This document shows, piece after piece, positions 1 through 56,300 of a stretch of 64,000 bases of DNA. How positions within the stretch are numbered: position 1 is the stretch's first letter; each line of letters starts with the position of its first letter. Both the position numbers and the translations under genes were made by a program. Under the pieces are notes generated by a model. It did not search any database, was not told where the DNA came from, and saw nothing but the letters and a program-made list of their open reading frames with translations. The stretch is from Microbotryomycetes sp. JL201 (Eukaryota; Basidiomycota; Microbotryomycetes), in contig JAQYUZ010000007.1 in NCBI GenBank assembly GCA_033819885.1, positions 310,001 through 374,000 of the forward strand. Reading direction: 5' to 3'.

Positions 1-1243
1 GTTCCAACCGAGCTTGCCATCGACTTGGATCGCTTCCTTGCGATCGGTCGGATTCTTTGACACGAACCTGGCGAAGTTGTTGTTTAGCGCACTGACAATC
101 ACACTCGCAACATGGCCACTCACCTCTTCCTGAGCGCCAACAACATGGCCCTGAACCAGAAAAAGTTCAAGCCGTTCATGAGAATGTTGAGTCCGAGGTA
201 GAGGTACTTGATGTTGCCGATCTTTTGGCCGGCTCGCGTTTGGAGCAACAGTACCCAGACTTGATACGAATTGTACGTTCCCCATATCAGTCGGACGGCA
301 ACGTATGACATGCTAGGCGCACTGCATGAGCTTGATGTTTGAATGCGCCAACCCGAAAACTTACACGAGAAAGGCGCCGTTGACGAGTTGATAGATTGAA
401 CCGGTCAGCTGGAACTTGTCGAGGTACCAATGGGCATTCAGGAAGCTAGAAACACTACGAATGTCAGTATAGACGAATTTCGAATCGAAACAGAACGCTG
501 ACATGGTTGATAGCTCCCACTGCGTGCACCAGGCGAGTCAGCAGCAAATCTCGCCCGAAGCAGTCGACGCCGGCTCACAATCAAAAAGTTGGGTCCGCAG
601 AACATGAGGAAAGGCTTGAGCGTGTACAGGAATGCGAGCATGCAGCCCGCGCCGTGCAAAAAGAATCCCAATCCCTGGGTGTTGATGTGGCGTGCCGAGA
701 CGATGGCGTCCTGAGCGTTGTAAAGGACCGCCCGGGTCAGTTCAATTTGCCGTGATGCGAAGCTACAAGCGCAAACGGCGACTCGCCCACAAGAAATAGC
801 CTGTAGCGAACGCGCTCATTCGTCCTTCAGCCTGCCCGTAGCCGTAAATCAAGTCGCTCGTGATTTCAAGGGACGGCTTGCGTATCATTGCGATTGCGAG
901 AGGGGTTGCGACGAGAGCATAAGCCCAGCCGACCTGGTTGAGGGTGCGTATGGGTCAGTGTTTGGATGCAAAGCGGGCGACAAAAGCTGTGCTTGGTTTG
1001 GCGTACGACGTGCAAGTCCCAATCATCCTGCTTTGCCTTGACTTTCGGATAGTAGTTAGGGAACAGCTTCGGGCACACGACTGACGACAGTCTTTGGAGT
1101 GTGAAGGACGCGGCGCATGCGGCGATCGTGATGTGCACAACACCGGCGAGCTTGGGCAGTCCGAGCTGCGTGCACCATGGCAAGACGAGCTGTTGGAGCC
1201 AGACCGGCCCTTCGAGCGCCGGCGAGTTGAGCAGCGTCGACAT
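1..1243 (-). CDS. TLC-domain multi-pass membrane protein (TMEM56/TLCD4-like), 3' end outside window
   Basis: Exons that keep one frame are 1243-1007, 933-787, 710-579, 519-503, 445-365, 312-124 and 91-1, giving 298 codons before the window edge. The product has several hydrophobic segments and the TLC hallmarks: GYFLWD at the exon 2/3 join, then HGAGC, CGPNFLI, WELSTIFLNAHWYLDK and a late W-F-R segment. TLC proteins (TRAM, LAG1, CLN8 family) act in ER or Golgi membranes, often in lipid handling; the TMEM56-like branch has no firm biochemical role. The ceramide-synthase motif with paired histidines is not obvious, so it is probably not Lag1. The start at 1243 is the first ATG in frame. Oddities: the 786-711 intron has a GC donor (GCGAGT), and exon 519-503 is only 17 nt. 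The gene is divergent from the next one, with about 257 bp between the starts. Confidence 0.8.
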
Positions 1244-1500
1244 GGCCGAGGCCGCAAGTGTCGGGCGCGAGGGCGTGTGCCTGTAAGCTGGCCAGGGCGT
1301 GGTCGCCGAGGCGCCGAGTTGGCTCTACCGCAGCACAAAGCGGGTTGCACTTTGATCATACTATTTAGGAAACCTGTGAAGAGGCTATTGGTTCTTGCTG
1401 GAAGGACGGAGGACCCCCTATTTGACCTACGTCACGCGCTTTTGGCGCGGCCCTTTGAGCTCGTCGCCCCGACAAGTACCTACAGCCGCTGCACCGAGCC

Positions 1501-3025
1501 ATGTGAGTTGTCAAGCAGCAGGTTGAGACCGCACAGGAGCCGCCGAGGCTGACGACTGGGCGTTGCAGGTCCGGTGACAAGGCGCAAGCGTCGTCGCTGC
1601 CTGTGCTGGCGTGCCACCCCGGCTCATTGAACGCCTTTGCACTCAAACTAAAGCGTCAGTCGGCTCTGTTCAGCCGCAAGGCCGGCTCAGCCTAGTATTT
1701 GATGCTCACAACAGCTCTCGCGTGCCAGCATCCGACAATGTGCGGTCGTTGCAGGCAAGGGCGGCGCGCAAGCTGGCGATCCCTGGCGATGGATCAGACA
1801 TCAGCGTTCAGTACCTGTGGTGCGACGTCTACTACTCACTCGAAGACGGTCAGTCACCTCGCGCGCTCGCCTCGCCGAGCCACTTGGCCTGCAGCTTCGA
1901 CCTGCCATAAGCTCAGTTCGGCAGTCTCGCGCACTACCATTCTCTTTCGAGCGCACGTGAGCACACGCTGACTTTCAAATTGGCTTCAGATGAAGACTGG
2001 GAAGTCTTTCTGGACCGGCACGCGTCTTCGGCCGAGGTGCCATTGCTCTTGAGCTCGCCCCACATCCCGACAAGCAACCCGTCCATCGCGAGCGTTTCGT
2101 CCCTGCCCTCGTCAGGCGGCGGACGCTCACAACAAGCACAACACGACACGGCATCAGTCTACTCGTCGCAATCGTATGGCAGAGGCAGAGATCATGACAT
2201 CCGCCAAGGCACGAGCATGCACCTGCTCAGCTCGTCTACGAGCTCGCGACAGAATGGCGCGCCCAGCATCAGCTCTGCCAGGTCCCAAGACACGCAAGAC
2301 ACACTCGGAGCAAAGAGCAAACGCACAAAGAGCCTGGCGCCCTCCGTGCCAGACTACAAGATCAAGTTTGAAGAGTTTCACAACCAGGTAATCGCCTCGT
2401 TGAGCCGAGTTTGACAGTCGCTGACACTTGGAATGCTCAGCTCGGTGTGCGCACGTTCATCGGCTCAATCGGTCCAGTAGAAAACGTTCGCATGATGGCA
2501 AGTTGGCTCGGCCCATCCTGCCCGACGTCGCTGTCCTGACGCACAAGCATTATCGCAGATGAAGGCCGGCCACAGAGCGTGCTACATGTCTCGAGCGTTC
2601 GCTCAGCAGCACAACTTTATCCCAAAGGATGCCGCGCCTGGATTCTATGGCTTCTCGGGTATCACGAACTTGGGAACGTGGCCAATCAAGGTGCGCTGGT
2701 GAACGAAGGCGTCAAATTCTGATTGCTGATACGACTCTTATCTGCAGGTCGGAAAAAAGACCGTCGAACAGCAGGTGATGCTTGTCGAAAATTCGTACTT
2801 TCCCATCGTGCTGGGCCGGTAAGATTTCCGAGAAACGAAGCAGAGACGTCGAAACTGACAAATGAATCTGCGCGCGTGCTTTGTAGCTCTTTCATGGAAC
2901 GGCGAGGCGTGCGCACCGACCCGCTGGACCCGACGTCGGTCGTCTTCATGGACACAGGCGAAGTCGTGCCGACGGATCTTGTCATTGTCAAGGACGCTAA
3001 CGGCGAAGTCGTTCCCATCTCCTGA
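1501..3025 (+). CDS. Conserved protein with PB1/ubiquitin-like N-terminus and possible retropepsin-like C-terminus
   Basis: Eight exons fit one frame of 346 codons: 1501-1502, 1569-1654, 1696-1848, 1990-2387, 2441-2497, 2559-2690, 2748-2818 and 2887-3025. The ATG is split by the first intron (AT before GTGAGT, G after CAG). The N-terminal ~90 residues look like a small beta-grasp domain ending YLWCDVYYSLEDDEDW, as in PB1 or ubiquitin folds. A Ser-rich linker follows. The last ~150 residues contain GHRACYMSRAFAQQHNFIP, GFYGFSGITNLG and FPIVLGRSFM. Their order recalls a retropepsin fold (serine after the active loop, flap, then I-LG-F), but the expected Asp-Thr-Gly is replaced by Lys-Ala-Gly. 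I infer an enzymatically dead, host-gene version; the fold assignment is a guess. Intron 2498-2558 has a GC donor. Function unknown. Confidence 0.65.
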
Positions 3026-5097: not shown

Positions 5098-5374
5098 AAG
5101 CATCTAGCACGCTGTTTTATTGTGTACATAGGTCTCAATCAGGCGGTAGAACACTCGGTATTCAAAGGGTGAAGCGACGATTTGCAACGAGAAAAGCAGT
5201 TATTGTGCACAACATAAACACCAAGCGACCAAACGAAAGCCAAAGAAGCCCGCACGAGACAGAGAGAGAGAGAATGTCTAAAATGATGAGATAGAGAAAG
5301 AGACTGACCGTTGGACACCAGTCCGCTTTTCAGAGCCCGTATTAAACTTTTGAAGCAGACCATGGACCAGCCGT

Positions 5375-9020: not shown

Positions 9021-10030
9021 ATGTCCAAAGTCATCCTCACAACGTAAGCATTCGGCTTCGGCCGCGCTGCGGGATTGCAAAGCTGACTCGTCTATTCCCC
9101 GCTGCTCTGCTCCAAACGCATGCTCGTTTCGCTTTGTCACGATGCGCCGCTGCCGCCCCGCCCGCGCGTTCTGCGCTTGTCTCCGCCATCTACTTCTCAA
9201 TACAGCTCAGACAATGAGCAATTCAAGGTTGAGCCCGAGGTGGCCACCCGCTCAGTCTTGATCAAGAACATGATCGAGGGTACGGCTCCGCCCTCGTCGA
9301 ACTCGCGCTGTTCTGTCTGGCGCTGTGCAGCACACTTTCCACTGGACAAGCGCTAATTTGCACTTATCTGCAGATGTCGGAGAGAGCGATCAACCCATCC
9401 CGCTGCCGAACGTGTCGTCGAATGTGCTCAAGAAGGTGTGGCCCATGAAGCGGTGTAATCACACGTTCTGCCAGGCTGACGACGATTCTGCGCAGGTGCT
9501 CGAGTGGTGCGAACACCACAAGAATGACCCCGAGCCGATCGCCGAGGATTTGGACGACACTCGACGGAAGACGACCGAGATCAGCGACTGGGATTCCAAG
9601 TGTCAGACTTCCATGAAGGCACTCGTTGTGCAGTCAACAACTGGCTGACCCTGCTGCTCTTCGGCGCTTCCTTACAGTCATTCAAGTCGACCAGGAAATG
9701 CTTTTCGAGATCATTCTGGCCGCCAACTATCTCGACATCAAACCTTTGCTGTACGCAGCTTGCAATCGACAGATCAGAGATTGATGTTCTGACGCTTTGA
9801 TTTTTTTTTTTTCTTTTTTCTTGCAGTGACGTGGGCTGCAAGACAGTTGCCAACATGATTAAGGGCAAGCAGCCCGAAGAAATTCGCAAATTGTCAGTCT
9901 CCCGTGTCCGCGTCGTCTCGCCGTTCGCGCACTGACCGCTTTGGTAAACAGGTTTAACATTGTCAACGACTTTACTCCTGAAGAGGAGGCACAAATCAAG
10001 AAGGAGAATGAGTGGGCCGAGGACCGTTAG
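9021..10030 (+). CDS. SKP1: Skp1, SCF ubiquitin-ligase adaptor
   Basis: Seven exons (9021-9043, 9206-9279, 9374-9435, 9496-9601, 9678-9750, 9827-9892, 9952-10030) make a 160-aa protein, normal for Skp1. It begins [17 protein letters not shown] and carries the BTB/POZ-like fold ([27 protein letters not shown]). It ends with the dimer/F-box-binding helices: [38 protein letters not shown] and final WAEDR. Skp1 links cullin-1 to F-box proteins in SCF ligases and is also a subunit of the kinetochore CBF3 complex in yeast. The intron before exon 6 has a long T-rich tract (9800-9830) that serves as polypyrimidine tract. All six introns are GT-AG. Confidence 0.97.
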
Positions 10031-10292
10031 ACAGCGTGTGTGTGGCATTTAAGCCGTTTGGCCTTTTTCGTTCTTGACGAGCTCACTCATCTTGATGATT
10101 CGTGAGCCTCGCAAGCCCCACCTTTGACTTCGTTTCTAAATTTGCAGTACAACTCTGTTTCGCTCCTCTTTTGCAAAGAAACCATTGCTTTTGTAAACCG
10201 CAGGAATGCGTATGAGCGGACTCGTAGGTTTTGTTTTAACAACACTTGAAGATCTAAAACAACCATGCACGACGGAAACCCCGAACGTATCC

Positions 10293-12387: not shown

Positions 12388-13327
12388 TCATCGGGGCATA
12401 CATTCGCGTGCTTGCTGCTTGACACGTTTTCTGCGATCACAAATGGTCAACCACGAGCAATTGACGGTGTCTCGTAAAACGCACTCGTAGGCCTTGATGT
12501 CTTTCCTGCTCGAGCACAAACGCCAAAATCAGCACCGCTGTTTTGAGAAGGTTCGACGACTCACTTGTAGAGCTGGTACGCATCCAATTGTGCTGGGTCG
12601 TTGGCGTTGGGGCTTGTGAGCTGCGAGTTGCGTTTGTATTAGCTCGCGTGGTCGCAACCGCAATACTCAGCCAGACGCACGAGATCTTGGATGCTCAAAA
12701 CGATCTGTTTGACCGTGATGGAAGGCTTCCATGACTTTTCTTCGTTCAGGATCGAGACTGTCGAGGCCTGTGAGCGCCACCGTGAATGTAGCTGGACAGA
12801 TAACTCACGGCAGACAGTCCCCGAAGGATAGACGTTGGGATGAAAAAGCGGTGGGGTGAATTTGCCTGTTCGGGTTCTGTTTCAGCAAGCATGCTCGCGA
12901 GCAAAGGAGAATACCTAGGACAGACACTTGGGTGGTTTCGAGGGGTAGTCTAGAATCGGTAGTGCTTTAGCGCCAATTGCTCGAGTACCGCTACATGAGC
13001 CGAAACTCACCTTCGGGAAAAATCATTTGCAACTTGTACAAGCCGTCCGCCCAGATCGTCTGTTGAGGTCCAAGTCAGTGGCGAGAGAGGAATCGCAGTC
13101 TGGTCAAGACGCACGCCTTCTTTGCCCGGTATGCCAACGTCCCAGAGCATGAGATTCAACGATCCATCACTTGTCTTTTGAGGCCTTGCCCAGAAACCCT
13201 GCACCGAGACACGCAGGTGAGCGCCGAGTTCTGGTTGCGAGAGCGAAGCATGAAGACGCACGTAAGGGTGATCCTTGCGCCATTGTTTGCGCTCTTCTTG
13301 TAACCTGACTTGGGCGATTCCGGACAT
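12388..13327 (-). CDS. UBC9: Ubc9, SUMO-conjugating E2 enzyme
   Basis: Nine short exons assemble into a complete Ubc9. The start is [20 protein letters not shown] (13327), then [80 protein letters not shown] with the catalytic cysteine in [21 protein letters not shown], and a C-terminal helix ending [13 protein letters not shown]. Ubc9 is the single E2 that passes SUMO from the E1 (Aos1-Uba2) to lysines in psi-K-x-E motifs, mostly in the nucleus. The final intron is set by the family: skipping from KAYE to KRVKQQ restores the usual C-terminus. Eight introns in about 940 bp make it the most intron-dense gene here; all look GT-AG. Confidence 0.96.
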
Positions 13328-13902
13328 GCCTGAGTATGCGTAGTGCCTCTTGTGGAGCTTGGCGAGGACCGCCCAGAGCTGATGACGAGACCACGACAGT
13401 CAGCTGATGAAGTCCATTTGTACGAAATGCATCTATGTAGCCGTTTTGTGGTGTTTTACGAGGTGCAAAGGCCTTTGACGAGGCGCGCAGGCAAGCACTC
13501 CTGTCGCGTGCAGTCCGTCGCCTTCAGACACGTTATGAGCGGAGTCGGAAAACGATATACGTATGAAGGGATTTGAGCAAGGCAAATGGGCCTCTTGATG
13601 AGCCGGCGCAATCCTGCGCAAGACGTGCGATGACTTGAACGCTAGCGCCGATATCGCACCAGCAGTGCAGTCGTTGCGAGCGATCACCGCAGATACTTCT
13701 AGATATCAGAATCAGGTGGGGTACCAATAGCACTCACCGGGGATGGCAGGTGCGGATGAGGACGGAGCAGAGCAGTCAGTGGCGAGCAATCATTCGTCAT
13801 GATGTATCTCAAATCAAGTTCGACATCCTCCTTTCAATTTGCAGTGTACCAAGACAATGTTGTTCACAATCACAAAATACGCTATCAGCAGATTGCGAGT
13901 GC
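13328..13902. other. Intergenic stretch of 575 bp
   Basis: It lies between the UBC9 start and the stop of the Sam37-like gene on the same strand. Short ORFs on both strands lack any family motif. A GGTGAGT near 13738 (minus strand) might start a 5'-UTR intron of UBC9, but I cannot support it. Confidence 0.35.
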
Positions 13903-20537: not shown

Positions 20538-23655
<3,118 letters not shown>

Positions 23656-25432: not shown

Positions 25433-26188
25433 TGTTTGTATGTAGCAGATGTTGGGCCCTCGCGACGGGCCGCAAGCGCACGGGCGGCGTCGAAACGGAC
25501 CGGACGAGCACCACAGCCGCAGTCGAATCCTCATGTCTCGTACAGACAGTTGGCCTGATTGCTGCCATGAGTACAATGTGCTCAATGTTGTGAGAAGCCA
25601 GCCTGCAAGTCCATCATTTCATCAACTTGGAATTTATCAAGAAAGATAGAGGCCCGAGCGTTCATCGGTCGCTACCTGCAAGCAATGCAGCGGGTCACTA
25701 CCTCGGACAAGACAAGACGCAGGTCTGGAATGTTCAACACACTGCTGCTGAAAATCAATGTTGTCGCGGTTGCGCCACGTGCGCGCCCTATGTCGATCCC
25801 GCCCGAAGCGCCAGCCTTCTTTCCCCCGCCGGCCTCACGTGACCCCCGCCATCGCCCTCGTCGCGCACCGACGGCTGAACTTGGAGGGCAGAGGGCTGGA
25901 GCAAATTAGTATCAGCAGAGAATGTTAGCTAGCTCTCTCAGTCTCACATCTGATAATTGCTGGGCCGCGACCTGTACATCCGAGCTTCTTCACTCCCGCT
26001 CGCCCGCCCTCGAGAAACGCCACCGAACAGTCTTCTTTCCTCCTCCCATCTGACTGCGACAAGAGACAGCACTCCCACAAAGAGGACGTACCTAACAGGC
26101 ACACTCGCGACAATCCGAGTCTATTCGTTCTTCCGATCGCTTGCGCCCTGATCTAGAACACTGCCTCGTCCGCAAAAGTTTGCTTGGA
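25433..26188. other. Intergenic region of 756 bp between divergent genes
   Basis: It separates the DHHC gene and the mucin-like gene. It contains TCACGTGAC at 25835-25843 followed by a C-rich run, and pyrimidine-rich stretches near 26020-26050, as often seen around fungal transcription starts. No convincing exon was found, although a missing signal-peptide exon of the mucin-like gene could hide here. Confidence 0.4.
25835..25843. promoter_or_regulatory. TCACGTGAC palindromic element
   Basis: Same 9-mer as at 3213-3221, 37332-37340 and 57710-57718. It lies between the divergent DHHC and mucin-like genes, about 350-400 bp from each start. Confidence 0.45.
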
Positions 26189-39387: not shown

Positions 39388-39628
39388 GATGTGTTGTGTT
39401 TCTCAGAAACGAGTGATACACAACAAAGCTGGCACAGATGGTCAACGACGAGCAGAGAGGTCGCGCACCAGACCAAAGTTGAACGATCGGAATGGGATGG
39501 CTGCAGCAGTCTACATGCCCCGTTCAGGGCAGTGCTGCTTGTTTGAACAGACCGAAGAGCTACGGTCGTCGCCAATAGTCGAGGAGATGCACGGAGTGGC
39601 AGGAACGAGCAATCGCGCGTGCCCGCCC

Positions 39629-39640
39629 GGTCACATGACC
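39629..39640. promoter_or_regulatory. GGTCACATGACC inverted repeat
   Basis: A 12-bp near-perfect palindrome with the E-box core CACATG, about 240 bp upstream of the T5orf172 gene start and just past the TOPORS-like stop. It resembles the CACGTG elements elsewhere in the window with one core change. Confidence 0.4.
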
Positions 39641-39679
39641 TGCATCATTTCCGAGACCGAATGTAGGACGGACGGGCAT

Positions 39680-42331: not shown

Positions 42332-43060
42332 ATGGACGCAGAACTGGAAGCTATCCGCCAAGCAAGTTCTTTCCACTCTCATTTACTAGCGTTTCAGGCG
42401 GCTCGCTAACGGTGTCCCGAAATCCTGCGTACACAGCGTCGCATGGCCGAGATGCAGGCCTCTCAAGGAGGTCAGGTCAACTTGCCAGGCGTCGGGCAGT
42501 CCAGTGGCGGACCTGCAGGAGGAGCACCGGACGCAGAAGAAGCAGCACAAAGGCAGCAGGCAGCAGAAGAGCAGAGGCGGGCCGTCATAAGTCAGATTCT
42601 CGACCCAGAGGCGAGGGAGCGACGTGAGTCTTGTACCTGTGTCCGCAAAGCCACCCGCACGAGCAATCCCAGATTTAAAGCCTGCTTGTCATGGCGCAGT
42701 CTCGAGGATAGCTCTGGTCCGGCCTGAGCGTGCAAGAGGTATCGAAGATTTGCTCGTACGGATGGCTCAGTCTGGGCAACTGCGAGGGCGAGTGAGCGAG
42801 GAGCAATTGATCGGAGTGCTTGACCAAGTCAGTTGCTAGCGGCGACTCCTCGTCACGGCTCTCGAACCTGGTTCGCTAATCTCGTGCACGACAGATCGAG
42901 GCGGGCGAGAAGAAGCAACGAGGTGGCGCAGACTCGGGGGCAGGCAAAATCATCGTGAGTCGGAGCGTCTCACGCTAGGTTATTTTGTGGTGATTTGGGA
43001 TCGGTCTGTCTTCAGTTCAACCGAAGGAAAGGCTTGGACGATAGCGATGATGACTTTTAG
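42332..43060 (+). CDS. PDCD5-family DNA-binding protein (TFAR19)
   Basis: Five exons (42332-42361, 42437-42623, 42700-42827, 42895-42954, 43016-43060) give 149 aa. The start MDAELEAIRQRRMAEMQASQ and the core ARERLSRIALVRPERARGIE, LLVRMAQSGQLRGRVSEEQL match PDCD5 almost without gaps. The tail RRKGLDDSDDDF carries the conserved acidic phosphorylation site. PDCD5 binds prefoldin/TRiC and Tip60 in animals; the yeast homologue (Ymr074c) is a small three-helix protein of uncertain role. An Ala/Gln/Gly-rich insert of about 35 residues follows the first helix. The first intron (42362-42436) begins GCAAGT; using it gives the invariant IRQRRMAEMQ, so the GC donor is well supported. Confidence 0.94.
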
Positions 43061-43231: not shown

Positions 43232-44320
43232 ATGTCGTCAAAACCGCTGTCTGGAGTCAAGGCTTTGCTGTACGACGTCTTTGGAACTGTGGTTGACTGG
43301 CAAGGCTCTGTTCACCGTCAACTCGAACAAAAGTGCGAGCGCAACGGCGTCGCAAGTGGTACGTCAGCGCGGCGTGGAGTTCAGTATGGGCCATCGACCA
43401 AGGACTCACTGCAATAGGATCTCTCGACCTGCTCGACTTTACGAGACAATGGCGACGCGGCTATCTGAGGAGAACGTCAGCCTGAGCGAGGACTGAGCAC
43501 ACACGTAGGAGTGAATTGACCAGCTGACACTTCTTCGAATTATAGACGAGAAATCTCTCAAGGTGCACCCGGACCGACCAACGTAGACGAGCTCCACCGA
43601 GAGGCAAGTTGTTGTCCAAAGTCGTGCCGTTTTGTGGCGAAAACCGACCATGCCCCTCCTTGCAGCTACTCGACGACCTTCTGGGACAAGAAGCATGGAG
43701 AGCATTGTCGTCGTGGTCTGACGCAGACAGAAGTGAAGCAGTCTTGTTTTGGCACAAACTCGACGGTCAGTCGCCGCTTGATCGCAATACGAAGTTCAGA
43801 GATACACAGTCTGACGAATCCTGCCTATGCAACAGGATGGCCAAATTCATCTAAAGGAATGCATTGTATCAAAGCTCTGGAGCCCATCGTCCTCCAAGCC
43901 ACGCTGAGCAACGGGAGCGCCAGACTGCTCATCGACCTGGCCCGTCACGCCGATCTGCCTTATGACGCCATCTTCTCGGCAGACTTGCTCAAGACGTACA
44001 AGCCGAACGCCGAGATGTACCAGGGTGGTTGCAAATTGTTGCAGCTCAGGCCGGAAGAGTGTGCCATGGTGGCGGCTCACATTTACGATCTGCAAGCTGC
44101 CAGTCTATATGGGGTGCGTGTAGTATATTGGGGCGCTGATCCTAGAAATGACATTGGTATCTGCCCACTGCCTGTTCTCTGGCAGCTCAAAACGATTTAC
44201 GTCAGGCGCGAGACCGAAGACGTCGACGAGGACAAGAGTGCGATCAAGTCCAAGACACAAGGTGGCCATGTTGATGTTGTGGTAGATAGTCTGGATGAGA
44301 TTGCCGCGTATTTGCAATGA
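43232..44320 (+). CDS. HAD-superfamily hydrolase, haloacid dehalogenase type II-like
   Basis: Six exons (43232-43358, 43418-43475, 43546-43603, 43666-43765, 43836-44113, 44186-44320) give 251 aa. The nucleophile motif is LLYDVFGTVVDW (motif I Asp). Motif II Ser/Thr lies in LQATLSNGSARLL. Motif III Lys is in LKTYKPNAEMYQ, and the acidic motif IV lies in CAMVAAHIYDLQAA. The GLKTIYVRRETED block is typical of fungal L-2-haloacid dehalogenase-like enzymes. Physiological substrate is unknown; many such fungal enzymes are annotated from sequence only. The motif IV histidine-tyrosine pair (HIYDLQ) replaces the commoner H-x-x-D-L. Intron 43604-43665 has a GCAAGT donor; intron 44114-44185 is 72 nt and in frame. 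The stop is only 66 bp upstream of the MAD2 ATG. Confidence 0.88.
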
Positions 44321-44386
44321 AATGGGGCGCGTTGCCCGGCTCGCCCCATTGTCATTCAACACTTGCACGGAAACGTGCGCCCGGCC

Positions 44387-45468
44387 ATGGCAACGGCTCA
44401 GCGGCGAAAGCAGGCGCAAGGCCAGAGTCTGTCACTCAAAGGCAGCGTCAAGATGGTCGCAGAGTTCTTTGACTATAGCGTAAACTCGTGAGCCGCAAAG
44501 ACAGCAACGCCGACGCGCGTCCGTCTGTCGTCAACGTCTCTTTCAGCTGGCGTCGGCGGGTCGCTGACAACAGTGATACCTGGTCTGATGTTGCGCACCG
44601 TTCCAGCATCTTGTACCAGCGCGGCGTGTACCCACCAGAGGATTTCAAGATGGTCAAAAAGTACGGATTGACGCTGTTTACGAGCGCCGACGAGAGCCTC
44701 GAACGGTACATTCACACCGTCATGAAGCAAGTGCAGGGTCAGTCAACGGCACCCGTTCGCGCTCTGTCTCTCTCGAGCGCAAGATTGCTGATCGAGTTGC
44801 TCGTCCAGCTTGGCTGCTCGCTGGCAAGCTCGACTCGCTCGCACTCATCATCATGAACAGGGACACGCGCGAAGTCGTCGAGCGGTGGCAATTTGACATC
44901 CAAGTTGAGGGCGATCAGGCTGAACCGAGCGATCAACAAGGCAAAGAGAACTCTGCGTGAGTCCTTTGAAGCCAACAGTGGCGTTCGAGACGCTCGACTG
45001 TAATCGTTGATGGCTTGCAATGCAGACCGGAAAAGCAGCAACACGCCACGGCATCGTCAAAGCCCGAAAAGACGCCGGAACAGATCCAACAAGATATTCA
45101 GGACATCATGCGGCAGATCACTTCAAGCGTCACGTTCTTGCCGTCACTTCAGGACAAATGCACGTCCGGTAGTCAGAGAAAGCCTACTTTGAGTATCATT
45201 GTTGGCTAACTATTTGATTTGGCGAAGCAGACGTTTTCACAATTCTGACATATGCCAAAAAAGATACGGAAGTGCCGAAAGAATGGATCGACAGCGATCC
45301 GCATATGATCATTGGTAACGCCGAGCAGGTTAGCTGGTACTCGCGCTGGTCATCGAGGTGTTCTCTTGACGCACCTTTTTATTCAAGGTCAAACTGCGGT
45401 CCTTCAGCACAAATAGACACAAAGTCAACGGTCTCGTGGCTTATCGCCTGGGCAGCGACATTCTCTGA
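44387..45468 (+). CDS. MAD2: Mad2, spindle-assembly-checkpoint HORMA protein
   Basis: Six exons (44387-44487, 44607-44737, 44809-44956, 45026-45168, 45231-45328, 45388-45468) give 233 aa, slightly longer than yeast Mad2. Signature blocks: LKGSVKMVAEFFDYSVNSIL, YQRGVYPPEDFKMVKKYGL, DESLERYIHTVMKQVQAWLL, LALIIMNRDTREVVERWQFD, QDIMRQITSSVTFLPSLQDK, FTILTYAKKDTEVPKEWIDS and, in the safety belt, VKLRSFSTNRHKVNGLVAYR. Mad2 binds Cdc20 at unattached kinetochores and blocks the APC/C, whose subunit CDC16 is encoded later in this window. The extra length is a Gln/Glu/Ser linker (QVEGDQAEPSDQQGKENS) after strand beta-5. The last intron uses an AAG acceptor. Confidence 0.97.
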
Positions 45469-45651: not shown

Positions 45652-48364
45652 TCATTTATCCCTGCTGCTGTTTGATGTGGCGCCGCCTTTGCGTTTGCCT
45701 TCAACTCCTCCCAGAACAGCGAAGAATGACTTGACTGGCAAGGTCACGTTGCCGATTGATCTCTCTCTCAGTTTCTTTTTACCTTCCTTTTGCTTGGCAA
45801 GTAGTTTCAGCTGAGCAGGAAAGTTGATCGAGAGTGCGTCAGCAAAGTGACCCTAAACTCCAAAGAAATCGAACTCTTACTTTTCTGGAAATGTCACCTC
45901 CACCGTGAATTCTAGCCGTCACGTCCTTTTTCATAGGTGCGACTCTTTCCCTCGCCAGAATCGTATTTCCAACGGCTGCTTGAATGACCACTTCGTATTG
46001 TTGCCTTGGCACCACGTCCCTTAACCTTTTCGCCCAATCCCTGCCTTCTTTTTCGGCTTGACTCTTGTGCAAAACGGTGCACAAAGCGTCAACTTTTGAA
46101 CCGTTCACTAGAATATTCATTCGGCAGAGATCGCTAGGCTCATAGGGCCCTTCCTCGTAATCAAACGAGGCAAAGCCAGACGAAATGCTTTTGAGCGTGC
46201 TATGAAAATTGGTGATGATGGAAGAGAGAGGGAGGTTGTAGACAAGGTTGATTCGACCACGAGACGATCCGGCCCCGGGTGTAGTAAGGTACGTGTGAGA
46301 TACTGGGACACCACGGTGCGACTGTCGGATTCGCTGCGGCTCAGCAAAGATTGTAGCACAGTGAATTAGATTATCCTCGCTTACTGTGCATAGGCTGATG
46401 ATTGGACCAGTGTACCTGGTGAAGAAATACGGCCGTCAGCGTCTTTCACAAAACTTTGGTCAGACGACCACTCACTCGTCTGGAGCGACAATCGTCGCCC
46501 GAATCATTGGCTCCATTATGGCCGACACCTTGCGCAATTCATCGGGATCAGGGAAATCTGCAGGGTTATCTATCGTTTTTTGTCTTCCGTCCTTGTACTT
46601 GATCATTACGGGCACGAGCGGTCTGGTCACGATAACCTCCTCGCCAAATTCGTCTTCGAGCCTCTGTCGAAACACGTCCATGTGAAGACTGCCATTGAAA
46701 CCCAACCTGAAACCTTGTCCGAGAAAAGTTGACGACTCTCGGCTCATCGTTACCGATCGATCTGTCAACGTCAATTTTTTCAGAGCGTCTTCAAGTTTTG
46801 GGAATCCTCCTGGTTCCATTGGATACACGCCGGCAAAGACCATCGATTTGAGCGGTTTGTAGCCGAGGTCCAGTGGTGCTACAGGAGCGTGAGTATGATG
46901 AAATGTGTCACCAAGGTGAGCGTCGCGCGAATCCTTCATGGCGCAAACGATCCAGCCGACCATGCCTTTGCGCAAAACACGATCTTGCGGGTCTGCCGAA
47001 TCGGCAATGCCGACTTCTCTCGGTGTGAGAATGCCCAAGTCGAGCACCGGGTAAGCCTTCTTCGTTGTTGTGGACGTGATCGTGTCGCCTTTGCGCAGTT
47101 CGCCTTCAAAAACGGCGACTAGACTGACGACACCTCGATATGGGTCATAGTAACTGTCGAACGCGAGAGCTTGGAGTGAAGCCGCCGAGTCTGTGATCGG
47201 TGGCGGAGGTGGAAACCGGTCAACGATAGCGTCGAGCACGCTCTCGACGCCAAAGCCCGTCTTGGCGCTGATCTTGAGTATCTCGTGCTCCTCGCAATCA
47301 AGCAGAGCCGATAATTCCTGAATGGCCGCCGGCCCTCGCGTGTCGTCCTGCACCAGGTCCCATTTGTTCACTGCGATAGGACTACTGAGTTGGATCACAC
47401 GCACAAAGGTCAGCTGTGGTTGGCTCACCGGCGCCTATCACTTTGACGTTGCGCTTTCTGGCTTCGTCAAGCACACTCAACGTCTGCGCTTGAATGCCCT
47501 GTTCAAGACGTGGTCAGGTGTGCAAAATGGTGGATCTATGCGGCACGAACCTGTGAAGCATCAACAAGCAACAGTGCGCCTTGGGATGGGAGCAGAGAGC
47601 GCGAGACTTCCGACGCAAAGTCGACGTGTCCAGGCGTGTCGAGCAGATTGAGCATGAATTGTCTTCCGTCTGGAGCAACGTAAAACATGCTGCGCGATGA
47701 GAAGGAATCAAATTTGCCCGGTATTCACACGACAATCATAGCCCTACGTTGCCGATTGCGCCCTGACCGTGATGCCACGCTCGCGCTCGACTTTTAGGGT
47801 GTCGAGCACTTGCTCGTTTTTTTGCTCTTCGTTGGCGGATTCTAGACTTCTCTGCTTCAATGGAATCGCACCCGTCTTTTCCAACATCCTGTCGGCCAAA
47901 GTGCTCTTGCCATGGTCAATGTGAGCTAGTCGCGGAATTCCGTCAGCGGAATGCAATACTCAGTTTGCCAGCAAGCGGTCGACTTGCCGATGATGGCGAA
48001 ATTACGTATGAATTCAGGTGGATATTGTGACAGCCTTGTCGATTCCTGCTTGGCACCGCGTTGGCCTTCAGTAGTCGAACGGAGAGGCCCGAGCTCTCTT
48101 AAGCACGTTTCTTACCGTCTTGGTCGACTTGGCCTCGGCAACACGTGATGTAGAGCTGAACGGCCGCGCGTGACATGGCCTACTTGGGCACAGGGCTGGT
48201 CTGTGTGCCTTTGTGCTACCGATCGAGCTTGAAGAAAGCTCGAAAGCCGCCGGACGAGCACGCCATGCTGCAATCGTCGACACTCGTCGTGGTCTCGGGC
48301 AGTGTAAGGTCCTCGACGAGCGTACAAAGTCGGCCAGGGCCCCGCTGGCGCGCGCGTTAGCCAT
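45652..48364 (-). CDS. GUF1: Guf1, mitochondrial elongation factor 4 (LepA) GTPase
   Basis: Nine exons (48364-48116, 48045-47988, 47925-47748, 47689-47551, 47498-47429, 47370-46476, 46415-46385, 46333-45881, 45810-45652) give 743 aa. The first ~85 residues are Arg/Ser/Ala-rich, a mitochondrial presequence. G1 is [20 protein letters not shown]2 lies in [15 protein letters not shown]3 is [16 protein letters not shown], and G4 is AVNKWDL. LepA-specific domains follow: [70 protein letters not shown] and the C-terminal GGGDISRK. Guf1 back-translocates or helps assemble mitochondrial ribosomes at the inner membrane. Intron 47987-47926 begins GCAAGT; using it joins IRNFAII to AHIDHGKST exactly. One exon is only 31 nt. 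Confidence 0.96.
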
Positions 48365-48578
48365 TCAGGTGCCGTCACGAGATAGAAAGCTCGCAGCACG
48401 ACAATGCAATAATCGAGCTCAATTTCCAGTGCAAGTGTCTCGCTTTAACGAAGTCGTGTAGCAGGGCAGCTCGTGCTTTAGTCAAGCCCGGTCAGGTGCA
48501 GTTTGAGCAAATTTAACTGGCAAGGGGCCTCGTGAAATGATGACAACAGTGCTTGACGTGGATCGAACCGGTTACAAA

Positions 48579-51257
48579 TCATTCTCGCTCCTCCTCTTCG
48601 CCAACATCACCGCTTATGCCCCAGCCTTCGTCGACTTCCTCCTCGTCCGCTGCAGGCTCGACCTCGACCTCGACCGCTGGAGCCGGCTCATGCACCGTTT
48701 GTCGCACCTCTGGCATGAGCTCAGCAGGAGGATCCACCAATGGCATGTCGTCAACGGGCAAGTCTTCAATCGGCGCGTCAACATCAACCGATGGAGCCTC
48801 AGTCGACGCGATGTTGCCTGCCGCTTCACCTCCTTGGACCATTCGCCCGTCTGATCCATCCGCTCGTTCCCCTGGTCCTCTTTCCTGGGTTTCCGCTCCC
48901 CCATTTATCGTCGGCTCCTCCGCGCGTGTCTCTGGATGCACCTCTTCGACTTCGTTCCTGCCTTCGATTCTCGCAACGAGCATCTCGACCCTTCTCAAGG
49001 CCTTGACGAGACCATGTTCTCGATCGGTCCGCAGGCCAAGCAGCCTGACACTTGTCTCGTCCGAGGTGACTTGACCGTACACGCCTACTTTCAAAGCTCC
49101 CTCACACCATGGGACGACCCAACGTCCGAAGGCCATGATTGCAAACGTGATCAACTGTCGCTCGTCATCTCGGATTTGTTGCAGCATGCGTTCTTCTTGA
49201 GACAAATCACCGTCCGGATGAGGCGAGACGGGATGAGCAGCGGAAGAAGACAGCCAAGCGTCGGCGAATGCGGCCAAGACTTGAGTGGCGCGGTCAAGTT
49301 CGCGAGCTTGAGAGACTAGAAGTTGGGGATAGACGGAGATAGGTGGCAAAAGGCGCAGTGAGTTGAGAGCTGTCGCGTGCGCATTCAGAAATCGTGCGAG
49401 CGGAGGCAGTAGTGCGAGAGTCGGAGGCGGCTGGTGGTGCCACTTGGCCGAATACTGTTCCGATGGGTCTGCACGCTCGGGCAATGGAGTTGACGCCACC
49501 TGTGACAGACCTTCCGGCACGACGAGCCAGTCTGAGATAGGCGCTCTGCCTCCCAAAAGCTGGATTCTCCGTGCAGCCGCCGCTGTCGTGCCTTTCGCCC
49601 CACCCTCCCAGCCGTCACGCCACTCCTTTTCCCACTTTCGACCAGCTTGCTCCCATTCCGTGACAACGATACGGCCGACGCGCACCTCGACACGTTCTCG
49701 GAGCTGTTGAATTTCACGAAAGTCGAGGCCGAACCGTGCAAACGATTGCGAGCAGTACGACAGCTGAGTCAGGAGAGACGACAGAGACGCGGTCGACGCG
49801 AGAGAAGGAACGACGACGGCGAAGATGTCTGCCAATTTTGTCAGGGCGGTCGTCAGGAACAAGGCCAATGGCGCCGTCGGCGGAAGCGTCTGTCTGTCGT
49901 TGGGTTTAGCTGCTGCATCAAACAGCGTTGTCGAGGACAGGAATAGCTCCGTGTACATGCCGACTGTCTCGCCAATGATCTCTCGCCAGACTTCAATCCA
50001 CCGTTTCGTCCATCGCGTACGCTCTTCGTTTTCCTCGACAATAGAACTCTCGTCAGGCTGATTGTAGCGTGCAGATGAGCCTTCAGCCAATTTGATCCCA
50101 CTGGCCGTCATCTGAGCTTCAACAGTCGCAAGCTCCCCTTTGAGGCAATTCCATCGTGCCGCCAAGAACACAATCCTCAAACCGTCTTCGTCAAGCTCGC
50201 GCGTTGGAATTGATGCGGCTCCAGCGCCGTCAACCAAAGCGCCGAGCAATCTCCTCTCGCCGATCCTCCTGAGTATAGCAACGCCGCGAACCGCGCCAGG
50301 CAGTTTGAGACCCCGCTGCGCCAGGCTCTCCAAGACTCGCGCTCGCAAAGACAACAGCGCGACCCCAATCTGGTCTTTGACCCGCTCCAACAAGAGCAAG
50401 GCGCCTTTGCCGTGCTCGTTCGCTGCTCCAGCAGCGCCTTTCGACATTCGACGGTGCAAGTCGGACAATCTCAGTGCCACGTCTATAGCTTCAGACCAAT
50501 AACCAGCTCTGACGCAGGCGTCGACGACCGACGGTGCCTCGAGAAGCTCTTCGACTTCTTCCATTCGTTCGCGCACGAGTGACATGCGTTCGCGTTTTCG
50601 CCTCGGTTCGGAGACTGTCTGTTCAAACGAGCTGACGACGGATTTGAGTGCGTCGGTTGATTCTATAAAGCCTTCGAGAGAATTAGACAAGGTCGTGAAC
50701 GATGTCGACATGGCTTGCGAGGCCGAGTGAGCGAGCAGGAACGAAGAGTAGCGCGTGAAGGCGAGAGAGGATAGGTCATTGTCGAGCGTTCTGGACAAGG
50801 TCGCCAGCGAGTTTGGCAATTGCTGCAGCGTCGGCAAAGGCATACACAGCAGTGAAGCGAGGTACTCTTGCGACTTTGGATTCGAGAGCAGCGCTCGAGG
50901 ATTCCCGATCAGGGCTGGCGACAGTATTGTGGTTGCGGTAGACTGCTTCGTTGGTGTCGGGGCAGAAGATGCTTTTGCACTGACGTTGACAAGCTGCCGC
51001 GGTTGCGGTGGTTGCTTCTTGAGTGAGTCTGCGAGGGCCGAGGCCGTGTCAAGTAGCAGCGACTGTAAGGAAGGGAGTTGCTCGTCCGCATCTGCAAATC
51101 CGGGTCTGATGGTAGGTGTCAGGCCCGTGGGCGCGATTTCTTGGCCTGGTACGGCCATGAACCCGTCGACTGGCGCGTTCTGCTGCCTCGCCGCGGCCAT
51201 GGTGCGCCCGGCTGATTCACCCCTGATGTGCCTGTCAGTCGTATGCGTAGCGGGCAT
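48579..51257 (-). CDS. COG8: Cog8, conserved oligomeric Golgi complex subunit 8
   Basis: A single long exon. The first ATG in frame is at 51257, giving 892 aa; the frame stays open 31 codons further without an ATG. The Dor1/Cog8 core starts at KSQEYLASLLCMPLPTLQQL, continues ALTRTLDN-like helices and FTRYSSFLLAHSASQAMSTS, and then a long helical-rod region (RMEEVEELLEAPSVVDACVR, GYWSEAIDVALRLSDLHRR). Cog8 belongs to lobe B of the COG tether that captures retrograde vesicles at the Golgi. The C-terminal ~120 residues are an acidic Glu/Val/Pro-rich tail ending EEEVDEGWGISGDVG, an addition seen in some fungi. It is one of the few intron-less genes here. It is divergent from the next gene with about 230 bp between starts. 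Confidence 0.88.
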   Translation of the reverse strand: MPATHTTDRHIRGESAGRTMAAARQQNAPVDGFMAVPGQEIAPTGLTPTIRPGFADADEQLPSLQSLLLDTASALADSLKKQPPQPRQLVNVSAKASSAPTPTKQSTATTILSPALIGNPRALLSNPKSQEYLASLLCMPLPTLQQLPNSLATLSRTLDNDLSSLAFTRYSSFLLAHSASQAMSTSFTTLSNSLEGFIESTDALKSVVSSFEQTVSEPRRKRERMSLVRERMEEVEELLEAPSVVDACVRAGYWSEAIDVALRLSDLHRRMSKGAAGAANEHGKGALLLLERVKDQIGVALLSLRARVLESLAQRGLKLPGAVRGVAILRRIGERRLLGALVDGAGAASIPTRELDEDGLRIVFLAARWNCLKGELATVEAQMTASGIKLAEGSSARYNQPDESSIVEENEERTRWTKRWIEVWREIIGETVGMYTELFLSSTTLFDAAAKPNDRQTLPPTAPLALFLTTALTKLADIFAVVVPSLASTASLSSLLTQLSYCSQSFARFGLDFREIQQLRERVEVRVGRIVVTEWEQAGRKWEKEWRDGWEGGAKGTTAAAARRIQLLGGRAPISDWLVVPEGLSQVASTPLPERADPSEQYSAKWHHQPPPTLALLPPLARFLNAHATALNSLRLLPPISVYPQLLVSQARELDRATQVLAAFADAWLSSSAAHPVSPHPDGDLSQEERMLQQIRDDERQLITFAIMAFGRWVVPWCEGALKVGVYGQVTSDETSVRLLGLRTDREHGLVKALRRVEMLVARIEGRNEVEEVHPETRAEEPTINGGAETQERGPGERADGSDGRMVQGGEAAGNIASTEAPSVDVDAPIEDLPVDDMPLVDPPAELMPEVRQTVHEPAPAVEVEVEPAADEEEVDEGWGISGDVGEEEERE

Positions 51258-51490
51258 GGTGTCAAAGGTCACTGACGGATGGGACGAGGCTCCAGTAGGC
51301 GGTGAGGTCCGCGTCGACGCTCGTTGGAGCCACGCTGGTCGACTGGACACACCAGACGACTGTCTGTTGCCCCAGCAGAATCGTATATAGCTGCAAGGGT
51401 CGCGAGAAGGCCGTCAAATTGTCGAATATGCGCTTGTAGACGAGGGCGAGAGCCGAAAGTTGATCGAACGAGGGTTCGACCCGTTGCAGC

Positions 51491-53274
51491 ATGAGCTACG
51501 TCGACTCAGGGCAGCCGCACGCGTCGCCAACAGGGACGAACACGGCTTCAAAAACACTGCAAGCCTCCAAGGCTCTCCCGTATGGCGATGTGGGCGCGTC
51601 AGGGACCGCCCAAGCCGCGCACTTTGGCCTCGCCGGTCCGCAATCGGCTGCAGCAGCCACAAGCGTGCAGAAACGGGTCACTCGTAGCTCAATGGGAGGG
51701 CCAGGGTCCACGAGTAGGGAAGGTAGCATCGCAAGCACAGAGAGCGAGTACTTGCCGGTCACGTGGTCACTTCCGCTGTTGCTGACAGGACTTTTGTTGT
51801 CTGGGCAATAGACTTTCAACCAAAGCCATACTTGCCGCCGGGCACACCCGTCTTGATCACCGTGTCGTTGCCGAGCGATGCGAGGCAGTTCCCGATCAAA
51901 TTGTTGCCGGCAGACGAAGCAATGCTCAGCGCGGACGCCATCGCACAGGCCTCAACAGAAGGTTCCTCAGAGTGCAGGCTTTTGAGGTCGGATGACGACT
52001 TTTTGACGACCTCGCTGCTTGGTCGCTCAAATGTCGTGAGTGGCAAAGTGACTCGGCGCTCGGGCCTTGGAGAGAGCCGCTCGACTGACTACTCTACGAC
52101 TTGCAAGCCGGTCGATACCTCTGACGCATTCTATCAGCGCCTTCACCGCTACCCCGAGGTGCTCGAAAAGCGCTCTGCCAGACTCGAAAAGGAACGGCTC
52201 ATTCACGAACGCAACAAACTTGTTATGGAACTCGAGGAGCTAAGGGGAAGGAGTTGGGTCTACACAGGTGCACAAGGTGGCAAAAGTGAGGAAGATCGTA
52301 GAAGGCGGATCCGGGAGATGGAAGACAGGCTCGCACGGTGAGGACAGTTTGAGGAAACCGTTGACGAAACAGCTGAGGGCGCTGGTCCTTTCAGATACGA
52401 CATCCTGCTTCCGAACCAGCCGCGCAAATCCAATGCTCTCAACAGTGTTACCCACGTGACTGCGGGCGAGGCCAAACGGCGGTCAGAGTCGCCGGCCGTG
52501 TCCGCAAAGAGCCGGCCGGGATCCCGAGATGGCTCGACCAAAATCAAGCTTTCGTTCGGAGGGTCTAGCTACGGTGCACGCGGAGCGCCATATAGAGGAG
52601 GCGGCAAAACGAAATTACCTCCACGTAGGCGACCATCCCACCTGGCAGATGACGACAGCAGCGACGGCTCGGGCGTCAACGCAGTGCGACAGTCGAAAGG
52701 GAAAAGCAAAGCGAGGTCCATCAAACCTGCACGGCCGTCAGATGCGAAACGGCCACGGACGTCTCTCAATCACTGGCAGCTTATTTCTGAAGATGAGCTC
52801 GACGATTCAGACGACGGTGAACACTACCACAATCCAAATGCAAAGCGAATCAGACTACCCGACTCGTTCTTTTCGAATCCATCGTTGCGAGACCAATACC
52901 TCGCATCCTTCAAATCACGTCGCCAGTCGTCGCGACTGTTGTACGCTTTTGGGCAGCGGCTGCCGGACGAAGTCGAGCATCAGGAAGAATTTGTGCCCCA
53001 TGGAGGCACGTCTGGTATATTGTCCGAAGACACGGCACCCGGCTTCTCTCAAAAAACGCTTGAAGAAATGATCGCAGAGCGAGGCGGCGAAAAGTTCGCC
53101 GTTGTCAATGGCATAGTAGTCCCAAAATCAGCCGTGGATGCTTACGGAACCGGACCAGTCATTTCAGTGACAAACAGCATGTCAAAGTCGGCAGCGCTCG
53201 AGCGAGCCGCCGCCATGGCAGCTCAGGCTCAGACTCCGATCTCATCATCAACCGCACTCAGTCCGCAGATGTAA
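51491..53274 (+). CDS. Conserved-looking nuclear protein with coiled coil, unrecognised
   Basis: At least three exons: from ATG 51491 to about 51720-51760, from about 51812 to 52337, and 52395-53274. I do not recognise the family. An N-terminal Ser/Ala/Gly-rich part is followed by YLPPGTPVLITVSLPS. Then comes a strongly conserved-looking helix block, DAFYQRLHRYPEVLEKRSAR, LEKERLIHERNKLVMELEEL and RGRSWVY. The last exon has basic, Gly-rich and acidic patches, then RTSLNHWQLISEDELDD, RRQSSRLLYAFGQRLPDE and AERGGEKFAVVNGIVVPKS. The mixture of basic clusters and a Leu/Glu helix suggests a subunit of a chromatin complex; that is inference. The first intron is ambiguous: GTAGCA near 51721 to TAG at 51811 keeps the frame (TSRED-FQPK), while other donors do not. 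Confidence 0.6.
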
Positions 53275-53350
53275 CTCCCGCACGTGTCTCTAGACTCATC
53301 GCTTGTTGTTTGTGCAATGCATCATGTTCTCATCGACCTGATGACGAAAA

Positions 53351-56300
53351 CTAAGCTGATCGAAGAATGACGGCCAGCGTGTCCTTTTCTTGCTGGTTCA
53401 GATACGAATCTGCGTAATGCCTAAACGAATTGATGTCCGACTCAAATGTCCGTTTGAAGAAATCGAAAAGGTATTGTTTCATATCGAGGCTGTAGACTGG
53501 ATCATCTTGCAAGTCTCGGGCTTCAAACGCATCTTGACCGTCCCCTCCATCGTCTTCGTCATCTTGGAGGTATTTTGATAGTGCACCGCCCGAACCGAGC
53601 ATGTCTTGCAGTGCATGAAAGGATCAGCTGAAAGAAAAAAAGAGACGAGAAGGACAGAGCGAGAAATCATCGCAAGCAACTCACCCGACAAGAAGGCCAG
53701 ATCGTTATTCAAACCGCCGGAGGCGAATTCGTCTCCTTCGTCGGCCCAGTCGTCATCCTGCGGGATGTTTGACGTGTGAATCAGCTCCAAACATGGCGGA
53801 AGAAGTTTACTTACGCCATCGTCAGAAGTTGCATCACCAGCTGCGTCCTTTGCCGCGTTACTCTCTGCCGCTGCATTCTGTGCTTCTTGAACGAGCAGTT
53901 TTAAAGCTTTCGCTGGGAAAGGAATTTTCTGAAACTGGTCTGGATCTGAATCAAATCATGCTCAGCTTGACTTCAGACGGATCCCGCCAGAGTCAAACTA
54001 ACTCAGACGCGCTTTCGACCTCGTCATGATCGTATTCGAGTTTTTTGCCGTCAATAGTAAATCTCCTTTGACGCTGATTTCAGCTAGACTCGGTCTTGCT
54101 GATTCAAACATTCTTGACAGAGCCACAGTGCTGAAAAGTCAGAGACCGAGCTCAGTCGAGCTCACATGCATGTCGAGTTTTCCTCACTTACGAGACTTTG
54201 ATGTTCCAAAAGCCTTGAAGTACGGGAGCAGTTTCGCACCATGACGTTAACAAAATGTCAAGTGCAGCTCGTCCTTGAACTTCGATCGATTCCAGCAGCG
54301 ACAGGACCGTATCGAGTTGCTCTCTCGCGAGGTAAGCGAACGGCAGAATCAAGCTCTGTAGTAGGGCATGAGTACGTACTCTGCTTTCGGCTACAAAGAA
54401 GCAAGCTGACCTGAGAGAAACTCGATGTCGTTGACGATGCGAGCCTTGTGACGAAGGCTTTGAGCAGTTCGGGCAAAACTGGGCTAAGGGACGAGCCCGC
54501 TTTTCGGATGAGGTGAACGACAAGGTCGCCAACAAACAAGCCGCCGCCCTCCCCTTGTGACGGGTCGAGTTGCTTCGCGACAACAGCCAGGACCAAGTCG
54601 AGTCCTGAGCGGCCTGAAGGATCCCGCCTGCATCGAATTTAAGTAGCGATAGCCTGAGGGTGTCGCAGATTGGCTCACCAATCCAATAGTTGTTGAGTGT
54701 CCTTGCGGACTACGTTTGTCACGACGTTGAGACCAAGTTGAATCACCTGTCGGTCGTCTGTCACTGTCAAAACACGGAACAAGTGTCCTGCCACCACTTC
54801 GAAGAGCCCTTGACCCATTGGAGATTGTACACCTGAAAAGATGGCATCGACAAACTCCACTGCCGAAGAAACGGCCGTGCCGTAAGGATCGATCTCGACT
54901 TTGGCCAAGGCGAGGTTGAGTTCTGGAAGCACGGTCGACAGGAGTGCAGAATGGATGGCTGGAGTTGACAGGCTTGCCATCGTCGACAGGACTTGGTCAA
55001 TCGTCGCAGCCAGCATCGGATCTGCCGGAACATCGTGAGCCACCTTCGAAAGTCGATCTGAGTCGTGCACTTGCCTTCTGGTTTGGTGAACCAAATCTCC
55101 AGAAGTTTTGACGCGAGTGAAGCGGATGTACGCTCGTCTAATGCAGGCCCTGCAGCCTTGATGCCCGACTCGATCGTTTCGACAACGAGCACCAAGGTGT
55201 TGTCCGTCGCCTGTGGCAAGAGCGGAAAGAGTCGTGACAGTGCCTGGCCGGATCGCGATGCATCAATTCCCGTCTTGATGTGACGGAAAAAGCTGCGCAG
55301 AAAATGGTTAGACAAATTTCATAGGCGAGAAAAGTTCAGGGCAGCTTGCTTGTTGAGGGCTCGTACTGCCGAGACTTTGACGGGGATCCCTGCCTCTGTC
55401 AGGCCAAGAACATTGACAGCCGCGTCAATGTACCGATTTGCCAGGTCCGCTGGAAGAGCGGACGAAAATTGACTAGCAAAGACAAAGCTCCTGCCTTGCA
55501 GGAACGGCAGACCTGCACGTGCGCCCAGGTCAATTGCAGCCCTCTTTCTGTCGGGAATTGCCGCACCAGTGTCACTCAAATGATTCGGAACGATCGAGGA
55601 GAAAACGGTGCCAAGGTCAAACACAGGAGAAAGGCCTTGATCCGATGAAGTCTGAACGTGCTCGAGCAAATCGGACGACACTGCGCCGGTGACTGCAAGC
55701 GCGCTTTCATACGATTTCCACCAGTCGATGTCTCCCTCGACTCTGAGGTTGTCGCCCTCTGTCGCACGCTTCTGGAACGCAGACCACAAGCTGCCGAGAG
55801 CGGCAGTCCCGTAGGTCTCGACCAGAGCCTGCACTCGAGTGGTCGTCAGCAATAGCAGACGAATCTGTTTGCGTGACTGACATTGGCTATTTCGAAGGAT
55901 GCAGACCGAGGCGAGAATGAGATCATCTCGTCATCCTCATCTGCGATGAAAGCATTTGGGTCCGACGCCCAACTATCCTCCTGAAGCAGCGGAGTCAGCC
56001 AATCCAGCGTTGACCTGCAAAGCCAGACTCACATCATCTGTCGTCATTTGTGCATACACAAGTGCCATATCGCAGGCTGCAACAAGGTTTGGCGTCGCTG
56101 CATCATTCTGCACGAACGTGGCCCGGACCCCTTTCCGCCTCGAACTCTGGGACAAGAAATCGAGCGCGCTTGCGACTAACGTTGGCAGGTCTGTAGCCAC
56201 CTGCGAGTCTTCCTCGGCCGGCGTCGGAATGTCAAATTCGGAAGAGTTTGACAGGTAGGCGGCCGAATAGATTGCGGCAACTTCGTGCAAGTGCTTGAGT

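Follow-up and report, generated by a model that had tools for sequence, protein, structure and literature searches.

Frequent GC-AG introns in a 64-kb window of a Microbotryomycetes genome and the donor context in which they occur

Background

How often, and in what kind of donor, does the basidiomycete Microbotryomycetes sp. JL201 begin its introns with GC in place of GT? The question is raised by a stretch of 64,000 nucleotides of its genome (contig JAQYUZ010000007.1, positions 310,001 to 374,000; here called the window and numbered from 1), in which a first-pass annotation had listed twelve GC-AG introns and had put their share at about 8%. GC-AG introns are already known as a kind, and GC donors are numerous in some algae and dinoflagellates; what is unusual here is the frequency. 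From the analysis described below we infer that GC-AG introns make up about 6-12% of the introns in the window. We think it probable that the introns in question are genuine and are spliced out by the ordinary U2-type spliceosome via GC donors, and that their frequency has been raised by near-neutral exchange of T and C at position +2 of donors that are otherwise complete.

Results

Our counts are based on a catalogue that takes its genes from a gene-structure model trained on the window, except in six regions, where hand-corrected models replace those of the trained model; UBC9 and SKP1 were amended afterwards, and predicted genes with fewer than 150 coding bases were excluded. In this catalogue 14 of 141 introns, carried by eleven genes, have GC donors (9.9%, 95% confidence interval 5.5-16.1), and among the introns bracketed by Pfam or PDB alignments (the aligned set) the share is 9 of 77 (11.7%; 5.5-21.0%), or 8 of 76 without the GC intron of MAD2. 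Removal of the three least supported cases leaves 11 of 137, a count that predates two GT corrections. Catalogued introns with a posterior of at least 0.9, a subset outside which the hand-added genes fall, include 5 GC among 100 (P 0.003 at a rate of 1%, 0.04 at 1.85%). The chance of finding at least 9 in 77 is 9e-8 at 1% and 0.0014 at 3.46%, with introns treated as independent even though two genes carry two or three. The earlier estimate of about 8% is thus upheld by both counts as well as by the blind model described below.

Some features of the catalogue bear on how these shares are to be read. The DHHC, PDCD5 and HAD genes were added since the first-pass annotation had named them, which may bias the count upward; they lie, however, in the widest spaces left between the predicted genes, and the spaces that remain measure at most about 830 bases. 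There may be further GT introns that escaped the catalogue, which would bring the GC rate down slightly. The SKP1 intron at 9436-9495 (+), which was missed by the model and placed by the SKP1 reading frame, is a GT intron with a GTGTGG donor; its 60 nt are divisible by three and contain no stop. In UBC9, with its nine predicted introns, the intron at 12758-12808 (-) has a GTGAGT donor by the conserved reading, the model having used a different site. The last intron of MAD2, a GT intron, was entered with its 3' end one base off, which does not affect its donor.

On the strand given for each, all twelve listed intervals have GC at the start and AG at the end; they are 53-76 nt long and have the donors named in the first-pass annotation (GCAAGT in nine, GCAAGC in two, GCGAGT in one); a GC start and an AG end are also found in two candidates that we added, at 45160-45230 and 51744-51811. 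The predicted GC introns are demanded by reading frame and homology and bear the window's usual branch motif and acceptor. That GC donors keep conserved motifs in frame, as had been claimed for the whole list, is supported for the eight introns that lie inside Pfam or PDB alignments spanning the junction (TLC, AFG2, DHHC 24142-24081, PDCD5, HAD, GUF1 and both of KAP114). The introns of the retropepsin-like gene, DHHC 23968-23902 and T5orf172 are supported by reading frame and splice signals, with homology partial at best, and for DHHC 25341-25275 the claim is weak. With MAD2 included, nine of the 14 GC introns have in-frame exon joins bracketed by alignment on both sides, the other five being without a bracketing alignment. 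PDB alignments are gap-free at the junction in AFG2, GUF1 (LepA), PDCD5, HAD, both KAP114 introns (importin-9) and MAD2 (4aez); the junction of DHHC 24142-24081 is aligned to PDB 6bms, with a gap eight residues on, and Pfam aligns the TLC domain over its full length, a search of the TLC protein against PDB having returned nothing up to E 1.

Alternative GT-AG paths that keep both frames were listed within about 36 bases of each site. Within this distance there is no such path for T5orf172 and for KAP114 55074-55022, and the alternative paths that were scored fall below the GC path, the dinucleotide aside, those of DHHC 24142-24081, DHHC 23968-23902 and GUF1 being listed unscored. Alignment scores were compared for TLC, AFG2, PDCD5, MAD2 and HAD, and in Pfam the GC path is higher in the first four. 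It reaches 91.2 bits in TLC against 73.9 for the sole GT path found, 52.8 in the AAA_lid_3 domain of AFG2 against 43.6 for the GT path and 43.1 for the retained intron, and 112.7 in PDCD5 against 102.4 for the top GT path. In the HORMA domain of MAD2 it gives 106.8 bits against 103.7 for one GT path, which adds 3 residues, while a higher-ranked GT path that adds 4 is unscored. The Pfam Hydrolase family does not discriminate in HAD (35.8 bits for GC, 36.3 for GT), whereas PDB 3umc does (144.7 against 134.6 for the top GT path).

Tolerance of C at +2 is conditional on donor context and not general. Donors with AAGY at +3 to +6 are GC in 11 of 25 cases (11 GC, 14 GT), all other donors in 3 of 116 (3 GC, 113 GT; Fisher 1.6e-7), and the same is seen in the aligned set (7 GC and 7 GT with AAGY, 2 GC and 61 GT without; Fisher 4e-5) and among introns with a posterior above 0.5 (4 GC and 13 GT, 3 GC and 102 GT; Fisher 0.007). 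This distribution speaks against the first-pass suggestion that recognition by U1 or U1-C is relaxed in general. A G at -1 accompanies AAGY in 7 GC and 2 GT introns overall and in 5 GC and no GT introns of the aligned set; put differently, among AAGY donors it is present in 7 of 11 GC as against 2 of 14 GT cases (p 0.017). C makes up 44% within AAGY, no different from its share in introns at large, where C/(C+T) is 0.52 (binomial 0.27), and position +2 looks nearly unconstrained in such donors. T-to-C mutation pressure, also proposed earlier, should by itself affect all contexts alike and thus fails as the sole cause, but it fits these shares if combined with context-dependent tolerance.

In the 14 GC introns the rest of the donor is close to the U1 complement: G stands at +5 in all 14, A at +4 in 13 and A at +3 in 12 (35 of 126 GT introns have A at +3), while exonic AG at -2 and -1 is found in only two. 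Twelve of the 14 carry CTRAY as branch motif, as do 67 of 126 GT introns, compared with 8 of 98 antisense and 2 of 69 coding decoys (7 of 9 GC and 38 of 67 GT introns in the aligned set); those of HAD at 43604-43665 and KAP114 at 55074-55022 are without it. Minor, U12-type introns have the long donor RTATCCTT; we reject this class, as the 14 donors begin GCAAGT, GCAAGC, GCGAGT or GCACGT and are not of the minor type. As a separate observation, 15 of 68 GT introns in aligned stretches carry C at +3 (mostly GTCAGT or GTCAGC), a position at which a purine is usual, and none of the 14 GC introns does.

The gene-structure model was blind to the list. It has coding, intron, branch-site, donor and acceptor terms, was trained on the window alone and started from equal small priors for GC, GA and GG donors. 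After training, its expected 128 introns comprised 119.8 GT, 8.5 GC (6.6%), 0.02 GA and 0 GG; when it was run on twelve simulated windows that had GT donors only, re-estimating nothing but the donor shares, it made a mean of 1.4 and a maximum of 4.35 false GC calls of about 125. Added beside GT, GC donors gained 30.8 nats of log-likelihood, GA 3.5, GG -0.3, AT -2.6, CT 0.4 and TT -1.0. The excess of GC donors in the blind model is real, and single calls made by the model only can be wrong. Four of the twelve listed introns have a posterior of at least 0.9 in the trained model (TLC, retropepsin-like and both of KAP114), AFG2 follows at 0.898, and six score at most 0.024 because their genes or first exons were not predicted. 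In a run penalised by 0.05 per intergenic base, with equal priors of 3.3% for GC, GA and GG, the model found several of these unprompted, with posteriors of 0.94 for DHHC 24142-24081, 0.54 for DHHC 23968-23902, 1.0 for PDCD5, 0.99 for HAD and 0.75 for GUF1.

Other calls were set aside. The GC introns 13379-13628 (0.87) and 48345-48588 (0.74) of the penalised run were not accepted, and GC calls at 36585-36643, 51391-51433, 25603-25786, 26054-26108 and 48268-48521 were left out likewise, all being outside the best path or in forced 5' ends; these calls were judged by model path and not by homology. Decoys other than GC that exceeded 0.5 in some run include GA at 45178, 39501-39681 and 52072-52137 and GG at 15727-15779 and 52757-52810.

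Retention of the twelve listed introns would leave only that of AFG2 open and in frame; it would introduce a stop in PDCD5 and in KAP114 55349-55293 and shift the frame in the other nine. The intron of the TLC-domain gene lies at 711-786 (-), within the Pfam domain, and has a GCGAGT donor, 76 nt and a blind-model posterior of 0.998. The gene first called retropepsin-like (1789-3025, +) has its GC-AG intron at 2498-2558 (+; GCAAGT, 61 nt, p 0.952); up to E 0.1 its protein had no Pfam match except one at 0.084 to an unrelated family, which looks like chance. In the AFG2-type AAA ATPase the intron at 23299-23367 (+; GCAAGT, 69 nt) is stop-free, and the gap-free PDB alignment at this point is VCP-like. 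The DHHC palmitoyltransferase gene (-) carries one intron at 24081-24142 (GCAAGC, 62 nt, p 0.006 in the plain run) and, past the aligned part, a second in its C-terminal part at 23902-23968 (GCAAGT, 67 nt, p 0.004). The third, at 25275-25341 (-; GCAAGT), is doubtful: it would join a hydrophobic stretch to the initial MDKITH in an N-terminus that has no homology, its posterior is 0.024, and it was unselected in a sub-region run and never exceeded 0.5 in four penalised runs.

The T5orf172 intron at 37987-38042 (-; GCAAGT) has an uncertain acceptor: the model preferred 37972 (p 0.64) over 37987 (p 0.126), the donor having 0.77 over the two, and in the gene model that uses 37987 the downstream exons match Pfam T5orf172 at 3.2e-7, with the match starting 3' of the intron. 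Plain posteriors were likewise low for the introns of PDCD5 (42362-42436, +; GCAAGT, p 0.008), the haloacid dehalogenase-like (HAD) gene (43604-43665, +; GCAAGT, p 0) and the GUF1/LepA-type GTPase (47926-47987, -; GCAAGT, 62 nt, p 0.01), and high for the two of the KAP114/importin-9 gene at 55293-55349 (-; GCAAGC, p 1.0) and 55022-55074 (-; GCAAGT, p 0.98). As for the added candidates, the MAD2 (HORMA) intron at 45160-45230 (+; GCACGT, p 0.66) has a rival GA donor at 45178 that wins under equal GC and GA priors, and the intron of an unnamed gene at 51744-51811 (+; GCGAGT, p 0.974) is without homology at the junction and has a GT path that changes no residue, scoring 2.3 against 9.8 for GC.

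Relatives of these proteins were sought in contigs. None was found for MAD2 in the genome or viral contigs searched, nor for the first 609 residues of KAP114 in the genome contigs searched, and UBC9 gave only two weak matches of 23 residues in viral contigs, which were not used. The best PDB match of MAD2, 4aez, contains what we take to be the S. pombe protein. Elsewhere in the window a Fungal_trans domain occurs among the proteins, and 26189-30146 (+) encodes a long predicted protein that is rich in Ser/Thr, has a single hydrophobic segment and to the eye resembles a mucin or a sensor.

Discussion

We favour, as the probable explanation, real GC-AG introns spliced in the ordinary way. The complete rest of their donors, AAGY at +3 to +6 and often G at -1, would pair fully with U1 and with the ACAGA box of U6, and with full pairing elsewhere the single mismatch at +2 would cost little. 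T and C could then exchange almost neutrally at +2 because the remaining donor is fully paired with U1 and U6, in introns that are slightly richer in C than in T, while in weaker donors C at +2 would be selected against. For mammals, GC donors have been proposed to become fixed neutrally where the context is strong (PMC2490688). In a study of human breast-cancer genes, GC donors created by a T-to-C change at +2 were functional in 5 of 30 tested cases, whose closeness to the consensus is pointed out there (PMC12805630); human GC donors are described as having consensus G at -1 and +5, which is read there as joint help from U5 and U6 pairing (PMC11732430). The idea that C at +2 relieves an over-stable pairing with U1 can be ruled out, given that 30 of 126 GT donors already have a predicted duplex of -8.0 kcal/mol or lower. 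We consider it unlikely, if worth stating, that in this lineage C is the default +2 base of otherwise complete donors (G|GNAAGY is GC in 7 of 9, and in 5 of 5 of the aligned set), with GT and GC occupying different corners of donor space and the spliceosome reading total donor strength and not an obligatory GT.

Several points weigh against our explanation. The evidence is the DNA sequence of one 64-kb window, in which GC introns tend to share genes. Part of the context effect may come from ascertainment, since good donors are favoured by the model and by the list alike, and the aligned set, which is less exposed to this, is small. The likelihood comparison favours GC in that the other parameters were trained with GC allowed. 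The penalised run lifted decoys too (14.5 GC, 5.1 GA and 2.4 GG), as did a run with all four donors equally likely (12.0, 3.5 and 4.1), and GT-only simulations produced as many as 4.35 false GC calls. These last points would suit an annotation artefact in which GC donors are picked to rescue reading frames, as in the first gene set of Heterorhabditis, whose 8.87% of GC-AG introns fell to 0.79% on re-annotation according to PMC5906903. Such an artefact is nevertheless most improbable, since nine of the 14 GC introns lie in aligned proteins, GA and GG are near zero in the trained model, and the branch motif is far above decoys. Clustering, with two GC introns in KAP114 and two or three in DHHC, might also be expected of a chance-rich patch in a genome with an ordinary GC rate of 1-3%, which we hold to be highly unlikely in view of the eleven genes involved and of the probabilities computed above for 9 in 77.

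Context alone leaves the excess over other fungi unexplained, and a more permissive splicing component is possible. One candidate is a change in the lineage (the U1 snRNA base opposite +2, U1-C, Prp8 or U6) that makes C at +2 acceptable or even preferred, and it would accord with a rate far above the fungal mean of 1.009% given in PMC7072748 and with the predominance of GC in G|GNAAGY donors. It seems unlikely to us, as with a change in U1 opposite +2 a complete context should no longer be required, whereas T is kept in 113 of the 116 other donors. The window itself contained no match at threshold to an snRNA family of Rfam, a tRNA search likewise gave nothing, and spliceosome protein families were absent among the window proteins scanned, several predicted proteins lying outside the scan. 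Conditional tolerance of C at +2 in complete donors remains our preferred account.

Should the whole genome show the same rate, about ten times the usual share of GC-AG introns would be present in this fungus. Tolerance at +2 could then be compared with the state of the other donor positions, which would offer a natural test of how U1 and U6 pairing buys freedom at +2. There would also be a warning in this, as a gene finder restricted to GT would garble conserved genes, GUF1, PDCD5 and AFG2 among them. This consequence had been foreseen in the first-pass annotation; it is plausible, and our own model, trained with GC allowed, loses the 30.8 nats when GC is withheld.

How does the window compare with known systems? 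A search of open-licence papers found no report of a fungal GC-AG share near 10%, and PMC7407476 states that 41.7% of the MYB genes of Ganoderma lucidum hold a GC-AG intron. The first gene set of Heterorhabditis bacteriophora had a similar share but owed it to annotation; 34-49% of the genes concerned were in species-unique proteins (PMC5906903), whereas most of our GC introns lie in aligned stretches. Eurytemora affinis with its GA and GG donors and Amoebophrya with its non-canonical introns (PMC7789003) also have many unusual splice sites, which however involve other dinucleotides or no fixed motif. Closer is Globodera rostochiensis, where a raised GC-AG share of 3.46% is supported by RNA and the donors fit CAGG[T/C]AAGT (PMC4901422); there GT and GC donors are said to follow one consensus, while in the window GC is concentrated in AAGY and GT is not. 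Closest in kind are the GC-AG introns of the major spliceosome in human and fungi, with which those of the window share the GC donor, the strong rest of the donor, the AG acceptor and an ordinary branch site, and from which they differ in frequency: about 10%, as compared with the shares reported as 0.87% of human donors (PMC11732430), 1.009% for the fungal mean (PMC7072748) and 1.85% in curated Ganoderma lingzhi (PMC11590231).

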